From contig JANQRY010000003.1 of NCBI GenBank assembly GCA_028284345.1, positions 930,001 to 994,000 of the forward strand: 64,000 nucleotides of DNA. The letters run 5' to 3'. The stretch is from Hyphococcus sp. (GTDB taxonomy: Bacteria; Pseudomonadota; Alphaproteobacteria; Caulobacterales; Parvularculaceae). Of the stretch, positions 699-11,412 are shown in pieces. Positions within the stretch are counted from its first letter, which is position 1, and the number at the start of each line of letters is the position of its first letter. The translations under genes were made by a program, and so were the position numbers. A model generated the notes under the pieces. The model saw only the letters and a program-made list of their open reading frames with translations. It was not told the DNA's origin and did no database searches.

Positions 699-1772
699 TC
701 ACTCCGAGAGACTTTCCTCACTCAACTCGCTGTCTTCCGTCCCTTGCTCCGCTGGTTCGTCAACGTCGCTGAGCTCCGAGAACCAAGCAACGATTTCGCG
801 GCCGATCTCTTCGGGGTGATCTTCCTGAACAAAATGAATCCCTTCCCCCAACTGAACCCCCTTTATGTTTGTCCAAGTCGAAACAATCTCTTCCGCGGCC
901 GCGGGAGGAATCAAAGCGCCCGGTTCAAAGTGCAACAAAAGTTTGGGCACAGAGGAAGACGGTAACCACGAGAGAAAATCTTCGACCCGGTCGGCGACAT
1001 CCTCAGGAGATCCATCGAAAGGAATCTGCCGGGGCCACACTAAGGTCGGAAGACGCGATCCAAACGTGGGGAACGGTTCCCGGTACGCCGCCATCTCATC
1101 CGCGGTCAATTCGCGCACCACGCTGAACGGCAACAGGCGCTCGACAAAGCCGTTAAACCCCAAAACGATCAGCTCGCCTATACCGGGCGTCCGAAATCCG
1201 CGAAAGATGGTCTGCCCAGGCTGTCCTAAGTCGCTGAGACTGCCAACCTGGTAGATGGCTTCCATGAACGCAATCGCGCGCACATTTTCTTGATGCCTGT
1301 AGGCGTAATCAAAACCAAGCGCCGACCCCCAATCATGGATAACAAGCGTGATGTCCTTCAATTCAAGAGCTTCGATGAAGCCTTCTAAATAGGTCGCATG
1401 CTCTGCGAACGTATAATCGATGTCCGGCCGATCCGACGCACCAAACCCGATATTGTCAACGGCAATGGCACGGACACCGCTATCGGCCACAATCGGCAAG
1501 ATGTTTCTCCACAAGTAGGAAGAGGTCGGGTTACCGTGCAGGAACAAAAAGACCTGCCCCTCGGCGTTTCCTTCATCGATATAGTGCAAGGTCGAACCGT
1601 TCACTTCGACATAGTGAGATCGAAACGGATAGTCCGCCCAGACCTCCGACATTTGCCGTTCTGGCTTTTCCACAGGATCGGGGCCCAACGTGGTCAAGTA
1701 AAACGAAAATCCCGCCCCAACCAAAAGGGTCAAAACGAGGATCCGTAAGAACCACTTGATCAAGAACCCCAT
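699..1772 (-). CDS. Haloalkane dehalogenase (HLD-II-like) with N-terminal membrane anchor
   Basis: 357 residues in the alpha/beta-hydrolase fold. The catalytic pentad of subfamily II haloalkane dehalogenases (DhaA type) can be placed: Asp147 nucleophile and Trp148 in VIHDWGS, halide-binding Asn81 in HGNPTSSYLWRN, catalytic acid Glu171 in FMEAI, and base His313 in GIHFVQEDHP. Such enzymes hydrolyse carbon-halogen bonds to alcohols. Unlike classical soluble members, residues 4-24 form a hydrophobic segment that should anchor the protein in the membrane. A Glu-rich tail follows the fold. I chose the ATG at 1772 because GGGAGG lies just upstream; a longer frame has no such site and would put 40 odd residues before the anchor. 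Substrate range is unknown. Confidence 0.85.
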   Translation of the reverse strand: MGFLIKWFLRILVLTLLVGAGFSFYLTTLGPDPVEKPERQMSEVWADYPFRSHYVEVNGSTLHYIDEGNAEGQVFLFLHGNPTSSYLWRNILPIVADSGVRAIAVDNIGFGASDRPDIDYTFAEHATYLEGFIEALELKDITLVIHDWGSALGFDYAYRHQENVRAIAFMEAIYQVGSLSDLGQPGQTIFRGFRTPGIGELIVLGFNGFVERLLPFSVVRELTADEMAAYREPFPTFGSRLPTLVWPRQIPFDGSPEDVADRVEDFLSWLPSSSVPKLLLHFEPGALIPPAAAEEIVSTWTNIKGVQLGEGIHFVQEDHPEEIGREIVAWFSELSDVDEPAEQGTEDSELSEESLSE

Positions 1773-1904
1773 ATTTTCCTCCCGAATCACCAAGCCAAGT
1801 CGCTGACGAACTCTGAAACCATCGTCAAGCAGCATAGGCAGAACGCCAAGAGGAACAATGAAACGAAAGGCCGCCTCGCGATATCGTGACATCTCCCAGC
1901 CAAG

Positions 1905-3690: not shown

Positions 3691-4326
3691 CTATCCGTCA
3701 GCTTCGGGATGAAAGCGATAGTGACCATGCATGGGGTACTCAAATAGGACGTCTTCGAGCACAGTCCCCGCCCCCACATTGTGAACGATCAACGGCCGCT
3801 TCCCATCCGCCGATCTTCGGTTGGAGACAATTCCGATATGCGGCAGGCTGTGACCGAGGCGCCACGTAACGAGATCTCCGGGTCTGTAAGCGTTCGGATC
3901 TTCTGACAGCGCAATCTGCTCGCCATACCGCGCAAAATAAGTTTCCAAGTTCAGTACACGGCGGTGATCGATATTTGGATCCGGCCTGTTGAGCCCCCAC
4001 GCCTTCGGATAAAGGTTGAATTCGGCCGACATGTCTTCATGCACAAGCTGTTGTAAATCAAAGCCCAAAGCACGATAGGATCGGATCAGGACATCCGTAC
4101 ACACACCTCGATTACCGGGGACATCACCCATCGGATAAGCAATAACCCTGTAACTGCCGTCATAGATGACACGGGCCTTGGTGCGTACCTCCGCCGCAGC
4201 AGCCAACCGTTCACCGAACGTTGGAGTCGATGCGTGTACACTCACACGACCTTCCAAAAGCAGCGCAGCAAGTACGAAGACCGCAAACAGCGGAATAAAT
4301 CGGGAGTGGGCTGCAACATTGGCCAT
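3691..4326 (-). CDS. Exported DUF1287 protein
   Basis: About 212 residues from the ATG at 4326. The first 33 form a likely Sec signal (RFIPLFAVFVLAALLLEG then VHA). The mature part carries the DUF1287 signatures: IAYPMGDVPGNRGVCTDV with a conserved Cys, LVHEDM, DPNIDHRRV, PGDLVTWRLG, PHIGIVS and IVHNVGAG. These Cys/His blocks recall papain-like amidases, so a cell-wall or peptide hydrolase role is possible but unproven. A longer frame starts at TTG 4422; the ATG gives a cleaner signal peptide, though neither has a strong ribosome site. The gene is divergent from the TTL-PqqD-HprK fusion, 197 bases away. Confidence 0.8.
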   Translation of the reverse strand: MANVAAHSRFIPLFAVFVLAALLLEGRVSVHASTPTFGERLAAAAEVRTKARVIYDGSYRVIAYPMGDVPGNRGVCTDVLIRSYRALGFDLQQLVHEDMSAEFNLYPKAWGLNRPDPNIDHRRVLNLETYFARYGEQIALSEDPNAYRPGDLVTWRLGHSLPHIGIVSNRRSADGKRPLIVHNVGAGTVLEDVLFEYPMHGHYRFHPEADG

Positions 4327-4523
4327 ACGAAAGCGTAACCATCCGACCTGGGCGGAAATAAGGTCCTTATCGAGTGACGGACTGTCCCGCGAAATCGGCG
4401 GTGCGCCCTTCGGTCCCGTCAAAGTGAAGACTTGTGATTTTCCTCGTCACGGCGGACCTTTCATTGAAGACACTCAGAATTGGACCGTCCACCCTTCAAA
4501 GACTTGAAAGAGAGAAGACGAAC

Positions 4524-6929
4524 GTGAAACGCTATTGGCTCGGTGGAAAAGACCCAAAAGCCCAAGACAAGTTTTTTGTCGAAGCGCTCGATCCCGGTCG
4601 CTGGCAGGCGGGCTCGAAGGATGATTGGGACACATGCTGGTTTACCGGCATGCCCGATGCCGACCTGTTCGAGCATCTCAAGTCCGGCAATTCCATCAAC
4701 CACATTCCAGGAAACAACGGTGTCACAGTAAAGAGCCTCTTGTACAAAACCCTAAGCGCACAACGTAATCGTGTTGCCGGTCATGATATTCAACAGAAGT
4801 TCGACTTCTTTCCGCGCGTCTACTCGATGCCGGGTGAGTATTTCGATTTTCAACGAGATGCCGCCGCGAACCCCGACAAGTTATGGATCGCGAAGCCCAA
4901 GAGCCTGTCAAGAGGGCGCGGTTTGGGACTGGTCACCGACCCCGGCACCGTCGCCAAAACGTCCGACTGGCTCGTCCAGAGATACATAGACAATCCGCAT
5001 CTCTATGATGGTCACAAATATGTCCTCAGGTGCTATGTCCTCATCACTTCTGTCGAACCCTTAAGGGTCTATCTTTATAAGGAGGGCTTTGCCAAGCTCG
5101 CTTCGGAAAAGTACGCCAAAGAAGACCTATCGAACCCTTATGTCCATCTCACGAATCCGGACATCAACGAACTCAACGAGGAGGTGGAAACACCCGTTAT
5201 CTTCATCCCGTTTTCCGACTACAAGACATGGCTTACTGCGCAAGGAATGGATCCCAATGAGATCTTTGCAAAAATCAAAGACCTCGTTGTCCTTACCGCC
5301 ATTTCCGTTCGTGAGCGGATGAGAGAACGACTCTCCGAGATCGCTTCTGACACAAGCGGGTGCTATGAGTTGATCGGAATCGATTGCCTCGTAGACGAAA
5401 CTGGCAAGCCTTGGATTCTGGAATGCAATCTGAGCCCCTCGCTGGAGGTGGTATCCTCGTCCGGCGGCGGCGACGATGTGGAGGCCAGCGTGAAACGCAA
5501 CGTCGTCGAGGACATCGTTTCGATTAAAGGGCTAAACGAGGACAATCCACCTTGGCTCAACACGCAGGGCGCCCAGCGCATCGTCGCACAGCATGACTTC
5601 GAACAAGACCGGTCCGGGAAATACGAGCTCGTGTTCCCTTCGCAAGACGTTGATAACTATCTGCCGGCATTTCCAATTCCTCGCTACGCCGATCGTCTCT
5701 TGGCGGAGCATATGCTGGGCAAGCCCTTGCGCGAGCCCACCTATTCGATCGGACGCGTTACTGAATTCTACTTAGAAGATGGGCTGGTCCTTCATGACGC
5801 GACGAGTGGAGACATGCTTGTTCCCAATCCAACAGCATCGTGGATATGGTTGAACATGGGCAATGGCCGAACAACCAATCAGATCACCCAAGACCTCATC
5901 GAGAGAAAACTTCAAGCCGATGAAACCTCCGAAAACGAAAAAGCCCTCACCCGGCAAATCGAAGGAGAAGTTTGGGATGCGCTGGCCGATTGGGGACACA
6001 AAGGGCTTTTGGGACACTTTGATTCCGCGAGCGCTCCGAACCGAAGCGAAACGTGGTTTCCAAAAAAGTGGCACACAGAGCATAAGATAGATCTACTTGG
6101 AAACTCAGTCGCGTGGCGTTCAACCTGCCCGGCCGCATCCGCACGGATGACCGTGTTTGGTGAAGCTAAAGAAACAGATGATGCGCCCTCGCTCATTATC
6201 GAGATCCTGGAAGGGAGGCAAGGCTATGCAATAATCACTCGCTCTTCTGAGTCGGACATCCCCAAATTGACTGCGACCGACGTCAAACTGTCGCGAATTG
6301 CCCCCATTGTATCTGCCTCACTGGTTCAGTTCATCTGTGATCAGAACGAAAGGAACTCGGTCCTCCGAGGCTGTCTTTTGGAAACAGCTCCTGGGAAGGG
6401 CATATTCGTTACGGCTACCGGCGGCGGGGCATGGGACACACTCGCTCTGCGCCTCTCCCAACATGAAAAATTCAAACTGATGGGCGGGGCGGCACTGGCA
6501 ACACAGGACCTGGGCAAACTAATCCCCATTCCAATTCCTGCACGGTCCCCCATTCAATTGGCAGACGCCCCATCACAGGATAATCTGATCGCCGCGTCAT
6601 CAGCAAGCGAATGGACACGTGCTGAATCCGGGTTCTTGTTTCCCTGCGAATCGCAAGCGGCTTTAGAAGCAATCGACATTCAAGTTGTCCTCGTCCCGGA
6701 GGATAAACATGGGCAGACCAAAGCCGAAATGGCGGCATTGTCGGAAGCGGACACGATTGCGAACGTCTGGCCATGCCGGCTCGGCAGCGCAGATCCAGAT
6801 ATCGTTTCAGCAGCTGTCGATCAGCTTGCGAACATGCAATGCTTTCGCATAACGTTCTCCTATGAGCAGTGCAACACCACGGACTTGGCAAAGCTTGTAC
6901 ATAATGCCCTCAGCAAGAAGAACGTCTGA
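4524..6929 (+). CDS. Tubulin-tyrosine-ligase-like ATP-grasp / PqqD-like / degenerate HprK-like fusion protein
   Basis: 801 residues from GTG 4524 (GAGAAG seven bases upstream; another GTG at 4434 adds 30 residues). Residues 1-340 match the TTL family: FPRVYSMP, WIAKPKSLSRGRGLGL (121-136, ATP loop), QRYIDNPHLYDGHKYVLRCY (from 152), VHLTN, YELIGIDCLVD and ILECNLSPSL (298-307), whose Glu300 and Asn302 are the metal ligands. Residues about 411-497 look like PqqD, a peptide-recognition fold of RiPP pathways. Residues about 518-798 resemble HprK-related kinases, but the P-loop position (630-642, TATGGGAWDTLAL) lacks the GKS/T motif, so kinase activity is doubtful. TTL enzymes ligate amino acids to protein C-termini. 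The sequence suggests ligation to a peptide held by the PqqD domain; the substrate is inferred, possibly the product of 7069-7386. Confidence 0.8.
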   Translation: MKRYWLGGKDPKAQDKFFVEALDPGRWQAGSKDDWDTCWFTGMPDADLFEHLKSGNSINHIPGNNGVTVKSLLYKTLSAQRNRVAGHDIQQKFDFFPRVYSMPGEYFDFQRDAAANPDKLWIAKPKSLSRGRGLGLVTDPGTVAKTSDWLVQRYIDNPHLYDGHKYVLRCYVLITSVEPLRVYLYKEGFAKLASEKYAKEDLSNPYVHLTNPDINELNEEVETPVIFIPFSDYKTWLTAQGMDPNEIFAKIKDLVVLTAISVRERMRERLSEIASDTSGCYELIGIDCLVDETGKPWILECNLSPSLEVVSSSGGGDDVEASVKRNVVEDIVSIKGLNEDNPPWLNTQGAQRIVAQHDFEQDRSGKYELVFPSQDVDNYLPAFPIPRYADRLLAEHMLGKPLREPTYSIGRVTEFYLEDGLVLHDATSGDMLVPNPTASWIWLNMGNGRTTNQITQDLIERKLQADETSENEKALTRQIEGEVWDALADWGHKGLLGHFDSASAPNRSETWFPKKWHTEHKIDLLGNSVAWRSTCPAASARMTVFGEAKETDDAPSLIIEILEGRQGYAIITRSSESDIPKLTATDVKLSRIAPIVSASLVQFICDQNERNSVLRGCLLETAPGKGIFVTATGGGAWDTLALRLSQHEKFKLMGGAALATQDLGKLIPIPIPARSPIQLADAPSQDNLIAASSASEWTRAESGFLFPCESQAALEAIDIQVVLVPEDKHGQTKAEMAALSEADTIANVWPCRLGSADPDIVSAAVDQLANMQCFRITFSYEQCNTTDLAKLVHNALSKKNV

Positions 6930-6958
6930 AGAAGAGATTCATTAGCAAGCATCTCGGC

Positions 6959-6989
6959 AAAAAAAGAGGCCGGCTCCAAGAACCGGCCT
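6959..6989 (-). terminator. Intrinsic terminator of the acidic repeat peptide gene
   Basis: AGGCCGG (6967-6973) pairs with CCGGCCT (6983-6989) around a nine-base loop. On the minus strand the stem is followed by seven T residues, so it serves the gene at 7069-7386 and supports that this minus-strand frame is expressed. Confidence 0.75.
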
Positions 6990-7068
6990 TGCAGGAACAT
7001 TGATCCGCAAGCGTATTAAGCACCTGGAGTTCGCTCAACGCGCTCAGAACATTTTCGAAACAATCAGC

Positions 7069-7386
7069 CTACTCAGCGGATGCTTCCGCTTTGGCTTCAC
7101 CTTCAGCTTCGCCTTCGGCTTTCGCTTCACCTTCGCCCTCGGCTTTCGCTTCACCTTCGCCCTCGGCTTCAGCTTTCGCTTCGCCTTCAGCTTTTGCCTC
7201 GCCTTCGGCCTTGGCTTCGCCGTAGCCTTCCGCTTTGGCTTCCGACGCTTCAGCAACCACGATTTGCTTTTCGTCTACGTCTGTTTCTGCCTGCGCTGTT
7301 GCTGCAAGCAGAAGCGGCGCAGACACAACAAGACTTGTCGCCAGCTTTGCGAAAAGCTTTTCGCGTTTGTCAGTAGATGTCGTCAT
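7069..7386 (-). CDS. Exported small protein with Glu/Ala/Gly/Lys repeat tail
   Basis: 105 residues. The start ATG at 7386 has AAGGAAG upstream. Residues 1-33 form a Sec signal: a basic start (KREK), a hydrophobic core (LATSLVVSAPLLLAAT) and an AQA cleavage site. After a short linker (ETDVDEKQIVVAEA), residues 46-105 are a run of EAKAEGE-like units made only of Glu, Ala, Gly and Lys apart from two Ser and one Tyr, ending ...AEASAE. I know no family for it. It faces the TTL-PqqD-HprK fusion gene, and glutamate-rich C-terminal tails are what eukaryotic TTL enzymes modify, so it may be the substrate. It could also be a metal- or cation-binding periplasmic protein. The opposite strand has a long but artefactual frame. 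Confidence 0.7.
   Translation of the reverse strand: MTTSTDKREKLFAKLATSLVVSAPLLLAATAQAETDVDEKQIVVAEASEAKAEGYGEAKAEGEAKAEGEAKAEAEGEGEAKAEGEGEAKAEGEAEGEAKAEASAE
7072..7251 (-). repeat. Low-complexity coding repeat (EAKAEGE units)
   Basis: Short units of about 18-24 bases encoding combinations of EGEAKA recur through the last 60 codons of the small exported protein. Units vary in synonymous codons (GCC/GCT, GAA/GAG, GGC/GGT), so the amino-acid pattern rather than the DNA seems to be kept. Unit number is likely to vary between strains. Confidence 0.75.
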
Positions 7387-7553
7387 TGATACTTCCTTTT
7401 TTGCTTCGTCGCCGACCTGACAGTAGAGACAGGAGTTTGGTGAAGCAATCGGGCGCGCGATCAACTCTTCTCACACAAAGGCCATCTAACGGAATTGTGA
7501 TCTCCCGGTGCTGAGAGAATGCTTCCTCAATACCAGCCGAAGGAACGCAAACG

Positions 7554-7970
7554 CTAACGATCAAGCCATTGGCCCGTCGATGTGCCCTTCGCAACGATCA
7601 CACCGTCCGGATCCGTCAACCTTCCCTCCAAAAACATGACTTTCTTTCCCGATCGCTCGACCCAGCCCTCTGCGCGGTAGGTGACGCCGGCACGCGCGGG
7701 ACGAAAGAAAGAGATTTTCATTTCAAGCGTGGTCATACCCCGTTCCCAATGGACGGACGCCATCGCAGCCGTTGCCATCGCATTATCAATCCATCCGGTA
7801 ACAAAACCGCCCTGGACGATACCCCCCGAGTGGCACTGATCCTCATCAGGTGTAAACGCAACCACGGCGCGGCCGGCTTTTTCGTTGATTTCGACATGCT
7901 GACCGTTCCCCATACGGCGCATCAATCGCGCACCCTCTTCGGTCATTCCTTCATCTGTGGTGTCGGTCAT
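7554..7970 (-). CDS. PaaI-family hotdog thioesterase
   Basis: 138 residues from ATG 7970, with GGGAG twelve bases upstream. The hotdog-fold pattern is clear: QCHSGGIVQGGFVTGWIDNA (the helix with the HxGG-type active-site turn), TLEMKISFFRPAR, and a final strand GTSTGQWL. Proteins of this type hydrolyse acyl- or aryl-CoA thioesters, and several clear dead-end CoA esters. It lies upstream of the acidic repeat peptide gene on the same strand, 167 bases away, with no evidence of cotranscription. Substrate is not inferable. Confidence 0.8.
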   Translation of the reverse strand: MTDTTDEGMTEEGARLMRRMGNGQHVEINEKAGRAVVAFTPDEDQCHSGGIVQGGFVTGWIDNAMATAAMASVHWERGMTTLEMKISFFRPARAGVTYRAEGWVERSGKKVMFLEGRLTDPDGVIVAKGTSTGQWLDR

Positions 7971-8162
7971 GGCGTCCCGCTCCCCGCGTGAGAATTTCGG
8001 ACCTTTGACTAGGCGTTTTGGTCGCCCACGACAAGACGTACAACTGCATGGGTGCATGCGCAGGAACGCACCTTAAGGGGCGCGGACCGGGAGGCACATG
8101 TGGACGATTGGAAGATCGACCGGAACGCTACATCGGTGACCACATAAGCCGAATATCGAGAA

Positions 8163-8217
8163 AATTTAAAACGCGTTCTAATTTGGAATTGAAACGCGTT
8201 TTAAATTGCGCTATGGG
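8163..8217 (+). promoter_or_regulatory. Operator-like dyad and candidate promoter of the catabolic operon
   Basis: AATTTAAAACGCGTT (8163-8177) and its exact reverse complement (8193-8207) flank a 15-base spacer that itself contains AATT-TGG-AATT. Each arm contains the palindrome AACGCGTT. A possible -35 (TTGAAA, 8189-8194) and -10 (TATGGG, 8212-8217) lie 17 bases apart, so a bound repressor would cover the promoter. The likely repressor is the TetR protein encoded at the end of the operon. The dyad is seen directly; its ligand protein is inferred. Confidence 0.6.
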
Positions 8218-8252
8218 ACCGCCAACTTTTCAAGGAACGAGAAAGGGACGCA

Positions 8253-8489
8253 ATGCCCGACAAACTGTCTCCTGTGCGCCGATCTATCCTCCCACGTGAG
8301 GGGGACAATTGGCATGCAATCGCTGCCCGCGAATTGAAAGATACAAATACAGATGAAGCCGTGGGTTTGTTGCAAAGCTGGAACCTACACGTTTTTATGC
8401 GTCCTGCGGCGCCCGAGGGATCGGCGCGGGCCGGCAACCCCATCTTGCCGAGCGATGTAATTTTCGTCGAACCTCCGCTCCCGACTTAA
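8253..8489 (+). CDS. Small LysM-like protein, first gene of the catabolic operon
   Basis: 78 residues with AAAGGGA before the ATG. The segment GDNWHAIAARELK ... LQSWNLHVF ... NPILPSDVIFVEPP resembles the order of a LysM module (GDTLWxIA ... N ... PGxxLxIP), with an insertion, but the match is weak. No signal peptide is visible. It is followed after four bases by a second small gene, and then by the amidohydrolase, so the three are probably cotranscribed. Function unknown. Confidence 0.55.
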   Translation: MPDKLSPVRRSILPREGDNWHAIAARELKDTNTDEAVGLLQSWNLHVFMRPAAPEGSARAGNPILPSDVIFVEPPLPT

Positions 8490-8493
8490 CGGC

Positions 8494-8736
8494 ATGTCCG
8501 GCGCGATCATCGACGACGTGGAAGTCACGGCTGCGCATGACGGAGTGGCGGAGCTCAAACTGACCCTTCGTCATGCAAACGGCGGCGTGTCACCGATCAC
8601 GCTCGATGAGATTGCCACCGGCGCCCTCATGAAAGCGTGTGATACGGACAATCCGGCCGGGCTTATCGGCCAAAGCTGGGAAAAAGTCCGTGATGCCCTC
8701 AATCACTCTTGGAATAGATATTCAAAAACATCGTAA
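8494..8736 (+). CDS. Small conserved protein of the catabolic operon
   Basis: 80 residues. It pairs a beta-rich half (VEVTAAHDGVAELKLTLRH, GGVSPITLDE) with a helical half (TGALMKACDTDNPAGLIGQ, SWEKVRDALNHSW). I do not recognise a named family. The tight spacing to both neighbours (four bases before, 22 after) and the absence of a competing frame support a real gene. There is no clear ribosome site, so it may be translated by coupling to the preceding gene. Function unknown. Confidence 0.5.
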   Translation: MSGAIIDDVEVTAAHDGVAELKLTLRHANGGVSPITLDEIATGALMKACDTDNPAGLIGQSWEKVRDALNHSWNRYSKTS

Positions 8737-10447: not shown

Positions 10448-11412
10448 CATTAGAAGAAATCAGTCAGCGGCGCGTTCCCACAAACGGCATAGAGCTCAAC
10501 ATAGCCGAACAGGGAGCAGAGAACGATAAACTGGTTCTATTGCTCCACGGCTTTCCGGAGTCTTGGTATTCGTGGCGCCATCAGTTCGCGCCCCTCGCCG
10601 CAGCGGGCTATCACGTCGTGGCGCCCGATATGCGCGGTTATGGCAAAAGCGACAAGCCGGCAGACATTACGGCCTACAATCAGGTCGAAGTGGTCAATGA
10701 CGCCATCGGGCTCATCGCCACTTTGGGCTATGACCAAGCCGTTGTCATTGGCCACGATTGGGGCGCGCCCTCTGCCTGGAGCACAGCTCTTCATCACCCG
10801 GACAAAGTGCGCGCCGTCGGCGCCCTGTCCGTGCCATTCACGCCAAGGGCGCCCAGCCCACCTATGGCAATGATGCGCGAGATGTTCAAAGGACAGTTTT
10901 TCTACCAGCTCTATTTCCAGGAACCCGGCGTAGCGGAAGCCGAACTGGAACGTGATCTCAGAGACGCCCTCGGCAAGTTTATGGCAATGGGCGGCGGCGA
11001 GACGGACCTCGCGAGCCTTCCCCAAAAACAAGAGGGCGACGACTTATTGACGGGGCTCGCCTTCCCCGACCCGCTTCCCAAATGGCTAACCCAAGCAGAT
11101 CTCGAGTTCTACACGAACGAATTCAAGGCCTCGGGCATGCGGGGCCCCTTAAACTACTACCGCAATCACGATCTCACTTGGGAGCTGACCGAGGGTGCCC
11201 CTGACAATATTCACCAGCCTTCCATGTTCGTCGCCGGTGAAAAGGACGGCGTCATCCTTATGGCCGCTGAGGCGCTGCAGGCCTTGCCGGAGCGCTGCAC
11301 TGATCTACGTCTCAACGAACTAATTCCGGGCATCGGCCACTGGACCCAACAAGAGGCGCCGGACCAAGTGAACGACGCTATGCTACGATTTTTGAAAGAC
11401 GTAGACGGATAA
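10444..11412 (+). CDS. Epoxide hydrolase (alpha/beta-hydrolase)
   Basis: 322 residues from GTG 10444, which overlaps the upstream stop and has GGAGG nine bases before it. Motifs of soluble epoxide hydrolases are present: HGFPESWYSWRHQ (35-47, oxyanion hole), nucleophile Asp105 in GHDWG, candidate acid Asp268 (GEKDG), base His299 (GIGHW), and tyrosines in cap segments (FFYQLYF, LNYYRN) that would polarise the epoxide. The reaction is hydrolysis of an epoxide to a diol. Its place between an amidohydrolase and an FAD monooxygenase suggests one degradative route in which an epoxide arises. Confidence 0.85.
   Translation: MTLEEISQRRVPTNGIELNIAEQGAENDKLVLLLHGFPESWYSWRHQFAPLAAAGYHVVAPDMRGYGKSDKPADITAYNQVEVVNDAIGLIATLGYDQAVVIGHDWGAPSAWSTALHHPDKVRAVGALSVPFTPRAPSPPMAMMREMFKGQFFYQLYFQEPGVAEAELERDLRDALGKFMAMGGGETDLASLPQKQEGDDLLTGLAFPDPLPKWLTQADLEFYTNEFKASGMRGPLNYYRNHDLTWELTEGAPDNIHQPSMFVAGEKDGVILMAAEALQALPERCTDLRLNELIPGIGHWTQQEAPDQVNDAMLRFLKDVDG

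Follow-up and report, generated by a model that had tools for sequence, protein, structure and literature searches.

The ligase fusion and its convergent neighbour

The window analysed here, meaning the whole stretch of 64,000 nucleotides taken from a Hyphococcus sp. genome (Alphaproteobacteria, Parvularculaceae; assembly GCA_028284345.1, contig JANQRY010000003.1, positions 930,001 to 994,000), contains a gene for a fusion protein in which a tubulin-tyrosine-ligase-like (TTL) domain is followed by a PqqD-like domain and a domain remotely related to HprK. Facing it on the opposite strand is a small open reading frame (ORF), absent from an earlier note on this DNA, that lies 139 bp from the ligase stop and predicts an exported protein with a glutamate-rich repetitive tail (a "comb"). 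This pair of genes is the subject of the present analysis, and its features are as follows.

4524..6929, + strand: TTL-PqqD-HprK-like fusion protein, 801 amino acids (ORF call and Pfam; full-length homologues align from the first residues)
4686..5525, + strand: TTL (ATP-grasp) ligase domain, residues 55-334 (Pfam, PDB alignment, invariant residues)
5745..6023, + strand: PqqD-like domain of the RiPP recognition element (RRE) kind, residues 408-500, proposed leader-binding part (Pfam, PDB profile search)
6096..6926, + strand: C-terminal domain, residues 525-801, remotely HprK-related, P-loop absent (profile-profile comparison)
7069..7386, − strand: proposed substrate, predicted exported protein of 105 amino acids, convergent with the ligase gene, with a ribosome-binding-like GGAAG before its ATG
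7288..7386, − strand: leader and signal peptide of that protein, residues 1-33, with an AxA-like end by eye (leader model, reading)
7072..7251, − strand: Glu-Ala-Gly-Lys comb tail, residues 46-105, with GEAKAEGE-type repeats (repeat analysis)
6967..6989, − strand: terminator-like hairpin of 10 pairs followed by a T-run, after the proposed substrate gene (hairpin scan)

The single 801-residue frame described in the earlier note was recovered with a GTG start, coding positions 4524-6926 on the plus strand and a stop codon at 6927-6929, the same frame being open from a GTG at 4434. Reading the sequence by eye revealed no hydrophobic N-terminus, and the fusion protein is therefore taken as cytoplasmic. 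No model in Pfam or NCBIfam spans the whole fusion, only its single domains being matched; PADLOC gave no match to the fusion protein or to the partner, and no match was found in the plasmid collection.

Assignment of the TTL domain is certain. PF03133 matched residues 55-334 at E 3.3e-58 (197.7 bits against a Pfam cut-off of 20.1), and it matched all 30 members of a set composed of the window protein and 29 homologues that are 32-41% identical to it. With the TTL-domain positions aligned to TTLL6, residues K124, K165, R169, T210, N211, D287, E300, N302 and L303 were invariant in all 30 aligned sequences, the first eight of which we take to serve in ATP, metal and substrate contacts. The best PDB matches of this part were TTLL6 (chain 6vzq, 1.7e-45; 6vzt, 5.7e-44), with further matches to TTLL7 (4.6e-34), TTLL11 (8.2e-21), 5vlq (3.6e-16; presumably the glycylase TTLL3) and TTL itself (2e-11). 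The earlier description of the protein as tubulin-tyrosine-ligase-like thus holds for the family, but in sequence the ligase is closer to the solved polyglutamylases TTLL6 and TTLL7 than to the tyrosine ligase. PF03133 is rare in the phylum sample, being present in 4 of 398 sampled genomes at E <= 1e-10, the window's own genome included.

The PqqD-like domain is well supported. Although the Pfam match to residues 422-467 of the window protein falls just under its cut-off (E 2.5e-4; 21.7 bits against 23.4), PqqD was matched in 27 of the 30 sequences at E up to 1, with a best E of 7.6e-10, and a profile of this region retrieved two solved proteins from the PDB, both of which are leader binders of lasso systems (TbiB1, 5.9e-6; TfuB1, 8.1e-5). 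In NCBIfam, PqqD relatives from lasso and SynChlorMet systems were the only additional matches, all of them below threshold.

Kinship of the C-terminal domain with HprK is moderately supported and is the weakest of the three assignments. No HprK or other family model in Pfam or NCBIfam matched the last 277 residues. Comparison of a 30-sequence profile with that of 12 HPr-rel-A kinase-like proteins (the TIGR04352 profile set) using hhalign gave a probability of 83% (E 9e-6 for a single comparison) in a collinear alignment over 188 columns that reaches the C-terminus, with 0.8% for a control of one unrelated family and 29% when the whole fusion was the query. A PDB search with the C-terminal profile returned one match (E 0.46), which was rejected as unconvincing, and TIGR04352 had no match in the window's genome at 1e-5. 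The P-loop pattern was found in the C-terminal region of none of 82 ligase ORFs, five of which are shorter than 740 amino acids (L053 and L060, which end at a contig end, and L088, L093 and L096). The loss of the P-loop asserted in the earlier note is thereby borne out, but the HprK relationship survives only as a remote one. Rather than a kinase, the C-terminal domain is probably a module for scaffolding or binding.

As for the partner, the repeats of its comb tail are 65-82% alike as DNA and more regular as protein, suggesting that selection acts at the protein level. The most similar partners are those at loci L031 and L032 of the collection described below, and these are likewise convergent with their ligase genes. 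The hairpin after the partner gene has the longest stem in a 3.4 kb scan that gave 4 terminator-like sites against 3.6 expected by chance.

Pairing of ligases with leader-bearing comb proteins

Relatives were collected by searching contigs of one genome per species with an alignment of 13 ligases (A1), by which 110 were found and 80 were kept for analysis; the same contig scan with the single window protein as query gave no match. The kept loci come from alphaproteobacteria (Parvularculaceae, Robiginitomaculum and Rhodobacteraceae-type members) and gammaproteobacteria (Halomonas, Billgrantia, Marinobacter, Aquisalimonas, Ectothiorhodospiraceae, Arenicella and Natronospira), many of the named homologues belonging to marine or halophilic genera. 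A further TTL protein, from another alphaproteobacterium (L146, genome G413, 6045-8672, minus strand), was set aside as a different fusion, in which oxygenase-like and glycosyltransferase-like parts (by eye) precede a C-terminal TTL match of E 8.5e-13.

The same fusion recurs in relatives, and its conserved neighbour is a small leader protein, whose gene lies no more than 1.2 kb from that of the ligase at 74 of the 80 loci. Given that the leader model was built from these same loci, this count describes the regularity of the pairing and is not an independent test of it. The nearest partner is co-directional with the ligase gene in 44 cases, divergent in 20 and convergent in 10, indicating that the pairing survives rearrangement. 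Six loci lack a leader match within this distance (L045, L053, L062, L076, L077 and L084). The ligase gene of L045 lies 0.9 kb from the contig start, the contig of L053 ends within the ligase, and L062 carries at 10614-10925 a divergent comb protein recognised by eye, which makes it the 75th locus; the other three are taken up below.

Co-inheritance, which served as the independent test of the pairing, was followed in 352 genomes of three clades, which as related genomes are not independent of one another. Among 100 relatives of the window genome, 13 carry the ligase and the same 13 carry a leader protein at E <= 1.8e-5, with four weak leader matches (E 0.004-0.007) in open frames of 427-714 amino acids among the other 87. 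In one gammaproteobacterial family of 101 genomes, PF03133 was found in 10 and the leader in the same 10 at E <= 0.001; in a second, of 151 genomes, 24 have both, one has a ligase fragment only (G593, C12:523086-523517, a 285-residue frame) and one a leader protein only (G689, C85:128791-128907, in a 250-residue frame). With the leader threshold at E <= 0.001, the three clades together hold 47 genomes with both, one with the ligase only, one with the leader only and 303 with neither. The model used (A3) contains the window peptide as well as rows contributed by 7 of these 13 relatives with a ligase, leaving 6 of the 13 held out; its rows may overlap in species with the gammaproteobacterial genomes, and the 303 negatives made no known contribution to it. 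A leader model built without the window peptide recovered that peptide weakly (E 0.076).

The window genome holds two ligases and two strong leader matches, each adjoining a ligase (6.2e-12 and 7.8e-10), the next matches being at E 0.96 and 5.65. The second copy (C7:463358-465700, L017; ORF end at 10692 of that locus) encodes a ligase 38% identical to the window's, and its partner (10757-11122, minus strand) carries the lipobox LAGC, its tail being of the EEAAEAAEEA type in place of the GEAKAEGE comb. Two further arrangements were noticed in other genomes. At L030 (G010, C28) a leader protein (6726-7082, minus strand) lies beside an apparent remnant of the ligase (residues 2-55, at about 6490-6651, plus strand), the full system being present elsewhere in G010; and in G024 (C62; L014, L015 and L029) the ligase gene is split into two ORFs beside an intact comb lipoprotein, so that either the gene is broken or the assembly is in error there.

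The anatomy of the partner family was read from 100 leader proteins of the 80 loci and the window genome's second copy, the window's own partner lying below the model cut. They share the leader consensus RxxLLxxLSRGLxYxAP upstream of a hydrophobic stretch, followed by a tail of 30% Glu, 26% Ala and 17% Gly. The commonest dipeptides of the tail are EA (1047), AE (966), GE (810) and EG (759), with only 68 EE, so that a carboxylate stands at about every second residue. A CxxCH (haem-c) motif follows the comb in 30 of the 100 proteins. Five partners were searched against Pfam: in four a SoxA/TsdA-type cytochrome c domain scored above the cut-off, and the fifth consists of the comb alone. The C-termini of the 70 proteins without CxxCH are varied (G 35, E 7, N 7, Y 6, S 4, T 4, Q 4, A 3), 63 of them not ending in Glu. 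Nine leader proteins show a lipobox pattern, possibly by chance in L041, and others, including the window's, end their hydrophobic stretch in an AxA-like site by eye. For the comb partner, Pfam and NCBIfam offered no model, only low-complexity or sub-threshold matches. This layout of a short precursor with a conserved leader and a variable tail, linked to an enzyme at 74 of 80 loci, is that of a ribosomally synthesized and post-translationally modified peptide (RiPP). A second leader class, with an SD....GYYM-like stretch before the comb, was seen at L106 (10838-10969), L109 (10845-10976) and L067 (7123-7254), all on the plus strand; its members have no evident cleavage site, are perhaps membrane-anchored, and in some loci lie close to a DoxX-like gene.

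Other neighbours were grouped into 118 clusters present in at least 5 loci (45 listed, 22 looked at and about 14 sampled by Pfam), which in GC-rich genomes include many spurious ORFs. They include a DinB-like protein, rhodanese, DUF302, DoxX, CMD, VTT, DUF3179, DUF3047, DUF2064, glycosyltransferase, HAD hydrolase, TetR, a small cytochrome c and a C92 amidase, none of which is tied to the ligase closely enough to be accepted as a part of the system. The C92 permuted papain-like amidase occurs at 17 of the 80 loci, 1.2-6.9 kb from the ligase (PF05708 at E 2e-9 and 2e-6 in the two members tested; for example L069 15127-15879, minus; L052 14041-14814, minus; L067 11635-12528, plus), and none was found next to the window's ligase. 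The amidase could be a maturation enzyme that works on the partner, or its presence could reflect mere synteny. In the window, the gene directly upstream of the ligase and divergent from it encodes a DUF1287 protein (3691-4422, minus strand; E 6.6e-67). In the flanks covered, the window's neighbours recur little at the 80 loci: DUF1287 and NTP_transf_6 at none, the glycosyltransferase at three, and the haloalkane-dehalogenase-like and thioesterase-like proteins at one each. The haloalkane-dehalogenase-like protein (699-1892, minus strand; NF002938, E 3e-112) has an N-terminal hydrophobic extension by eye.

The proposed reaction and its alternatives

We consider it probable, judging from sequence, that the gene pair carries out leader-guided (poly)glutamylation of exported Glu-comb proteins. 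The exported protein would carry, when synthesised, an N-terminal leader that runs on into its signal peptide. Since the ligase has no hydrophobic N-terminus, the tail, if the partner is the substrate, would be modified before export; and since a domain of leader-binding type stands beside the ligase while the partner bears a leader, the PqqD-like domain would hold that leader in the cytoplasm and present the Glu-comb tail to the neighbouring TTL active site. There the TTL domain, using ATP, would join an amino acid, most likely glutamate, to the side-chain carboxylates of the regularly spaced tail glutamates, yielding what may be a branched and highly anionic comb. The modified protein would then leave via its signal peptide, and in the envelope its tail would be either free, anchored by a lipid or attached to a c-type cytochrome domain. 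These findings agree with the proposal of the earlier note, a single protein that grips a peptide and attaches amino acids to it, and they add a candidate substrate.

The position of the attachment can be approached through two residues of TTLL6, Q180 and H362, which are reported to set elongation over initiation (PMC7970040; PMC12366701), with Arg at position 180 favouring gamma-linked attachment onto an acceptor glutamate. The window protein has R130 and L303 at these positions. Over the 82 ligase ORFs, position 130 is Arg in 44 and Lys in 38 (77 parsed by pattern as 42 R and 35 K, and the remaining 5 read by eye as 2 R and 3 K), and position 303 is Leu in all 82; the sequence of 6vzq has R and I there, and that of 6vzt has Q and H. 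TTLL7, which is reported to initiate as well as elongate (PMC7970040), has Met and Arg at the equivalent positions in our alignment. That TTLL7 initiates despite its Met indicates that position 130 alone is not decisive, and the two positions together are a hint and not a proof. Combined with the internal placement of the comb in the CxxCH proteins and the variable C-termini of the others, they favour side chains, and internal Glu side chains are thus the likelier target than the C-terminus.

The most serious alternative keeps the enzyme-substrate pair but supposes that a residue other than glutamate (glycine, alanine or another) is added, or that the C-terminal carboxylate is targeted as by tubulin-tyrosine ligase. 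The TTL family comprises tyrosine, glycine and glutamate ligases (PMC7970040), TTLL11 and TTLL6 are reported to extend main chains (PMC12366701; PMC11574253), and likeness in sequence does not by itself fix the donor. However, the closest solved relatives are polyglutamylases, and the C-termini of the 70 free leader proteins vary (35 G, 7 E), the 30 others continuing into the CxxCH region. We therefore regard this alternative as unlikely.

Several observations weigh against glutamylation of the comb as proposed. Of the 82 ORFs, 38 have Lys at position 130 in place of the initiation-favouring Arg, and the initiator TTLL7 has Met; the donor amino acid is deduced from sequence likeness alone; and the leader may be conserved partly as a piece of the signal peptide. 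At L076 and L084 the ligase is flanked by sequence on both sides, in which no partner was found, and the only leader of L077 is 4.75 kb away. Finally, the recurrent C92 amidase leaves room for a different, processing-based product.

That last point leads to an explanation in which the Glu comb is a carrier only, on which a peptide-like product is built and later cut off, as with PEARL ligases. A leader-bearing scaffold combined with a ligase follows the logic of 3-thiaglutamate biosynthesis (PMC9016710), and the amidase recurring at 17 of 80 loci could supply the cut. Yet most neighbourhoods lack the amidase, its distance from the ligase varies, and none was found next to the window's ligase, whose upstream neighbour is the DUF1287 protein that recurs at none of the 80 loci; moreover, the lipobox-like or AxA-like signal ends, or the CxxCH region, of many combs suit a structural end product, and we give the carrier explanation little credence. 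It is less probable still that the acidic exported proteins are unmodified and merely linked to a ligase that acts elsewhere: 47 of the 49 genomes holding either gene hold both, across three clades and three gene orientations. A last reading, in which the TTL domain has lost its activity and the fusion serves the acidic protein as a binding chaperone, might be hinted at by decay of one catalytic part in the P-loop-less HprK-like domain; it is hardly credible, given the invariance of the ATP and metal positions in 30 of 30 sequences at the 32-41% identity noted above.

Relation to known systems and significance

TTL-type glutamylation is mainly known as a modification of tubulin tails in eukaryotes. 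The window protein shares with eukaryotic TTLL6 and TTLL7 the PF03133 ligase domain with its catalytic positions kept and, by our reading, an acidic tail as target; it differs in being bacterial, in the PqqD-like and HprK-like domains after the ligase and, from TTLL6, in the R/K and L at the Q180 and H362 positions. A close functional parallel is TTLL5, which is reported to glutamylate the Glu-Gly repeats of RPGR-ORF15 through a docking domain that binds the C-terminal basic domain of RPGR (PMC13052805). There too a TTL enzyme with a separate docking domain acts on a long Glu-rich repeat of a non-tubulin protein, and on our best reading the window system would be its bacterial counterpart, with the difference that the docking site of RPGR is C-terminal whereas here it would be an N-terminal leader beside the signal peptide of an exported target.

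From the side of leader recognition, the middle domain belongs with the lasso B1 proteins (TbiB1, TfuB1) and PqqD-type RREs, whose leader-plus-tail layout the partner shares; here the domain is fused to a TTL ligase, the partner combines a Glu comb and a signal peptide, and no lasso cyclase was noticed at these loci, although no search was aimed at one. The C-terminal domain recalls, through its remote profile match, the kinase-like protein of the HPr-rel-A system (TIGR04352), from which the window family differs by the loss of the P-loop; that system, as we understand it, has a PqqD-related partner and no TTL ligase. RimK, which we take to belong to a different ATP-grasp branch without TTL, PqqD or HprK parts, acts on a ribosomal protein and involves no leader or exported comb. 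It is nonetheless a bacterial ATP-grasp ligase that joins glutamates to a protein, ribosomal protein S6 (PMC4431377), so that bacterial protein glutamylation as such is already known, with RimK on S6 as its known case. In the open-access literature searched we found no report of a bacterial TTL polyglutamylation system; a Legionella genome paper contains the words 'bacterial TTL' once. The parts are of known kinds, and it is their combination that is new.

Beyond the gene pair itself, we put forward only tentatively that these loci represent a new bacterial modification class, in which RiPP-style, leader-guided (poly)glutamylation of comb proteins that are exported or lipid-anchored gives rise to branched polyanionic brushes in the envelope, some of them bearing cytochromes. 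What such brushes would do is a matter of guesswork, a surface polyanion, an ion buffer or, in the cytochrome-fused forms, an electron-transfer tether being our guesses. With a bacterial TTL enzyme and a genetically linked family of putative substrates carrying an idealised Glu repeat, a two-protein system becomes available in which to test how specific these ligases are and how they evolved. If the proposal is true, a new type of ligase would join those of leader-guided peptide modification, the product would be a polyanionic surface or a cytochrome-linked polymer of a new kind, and the system might bear on the origin of the eukaryotic TTLL glutamylases.

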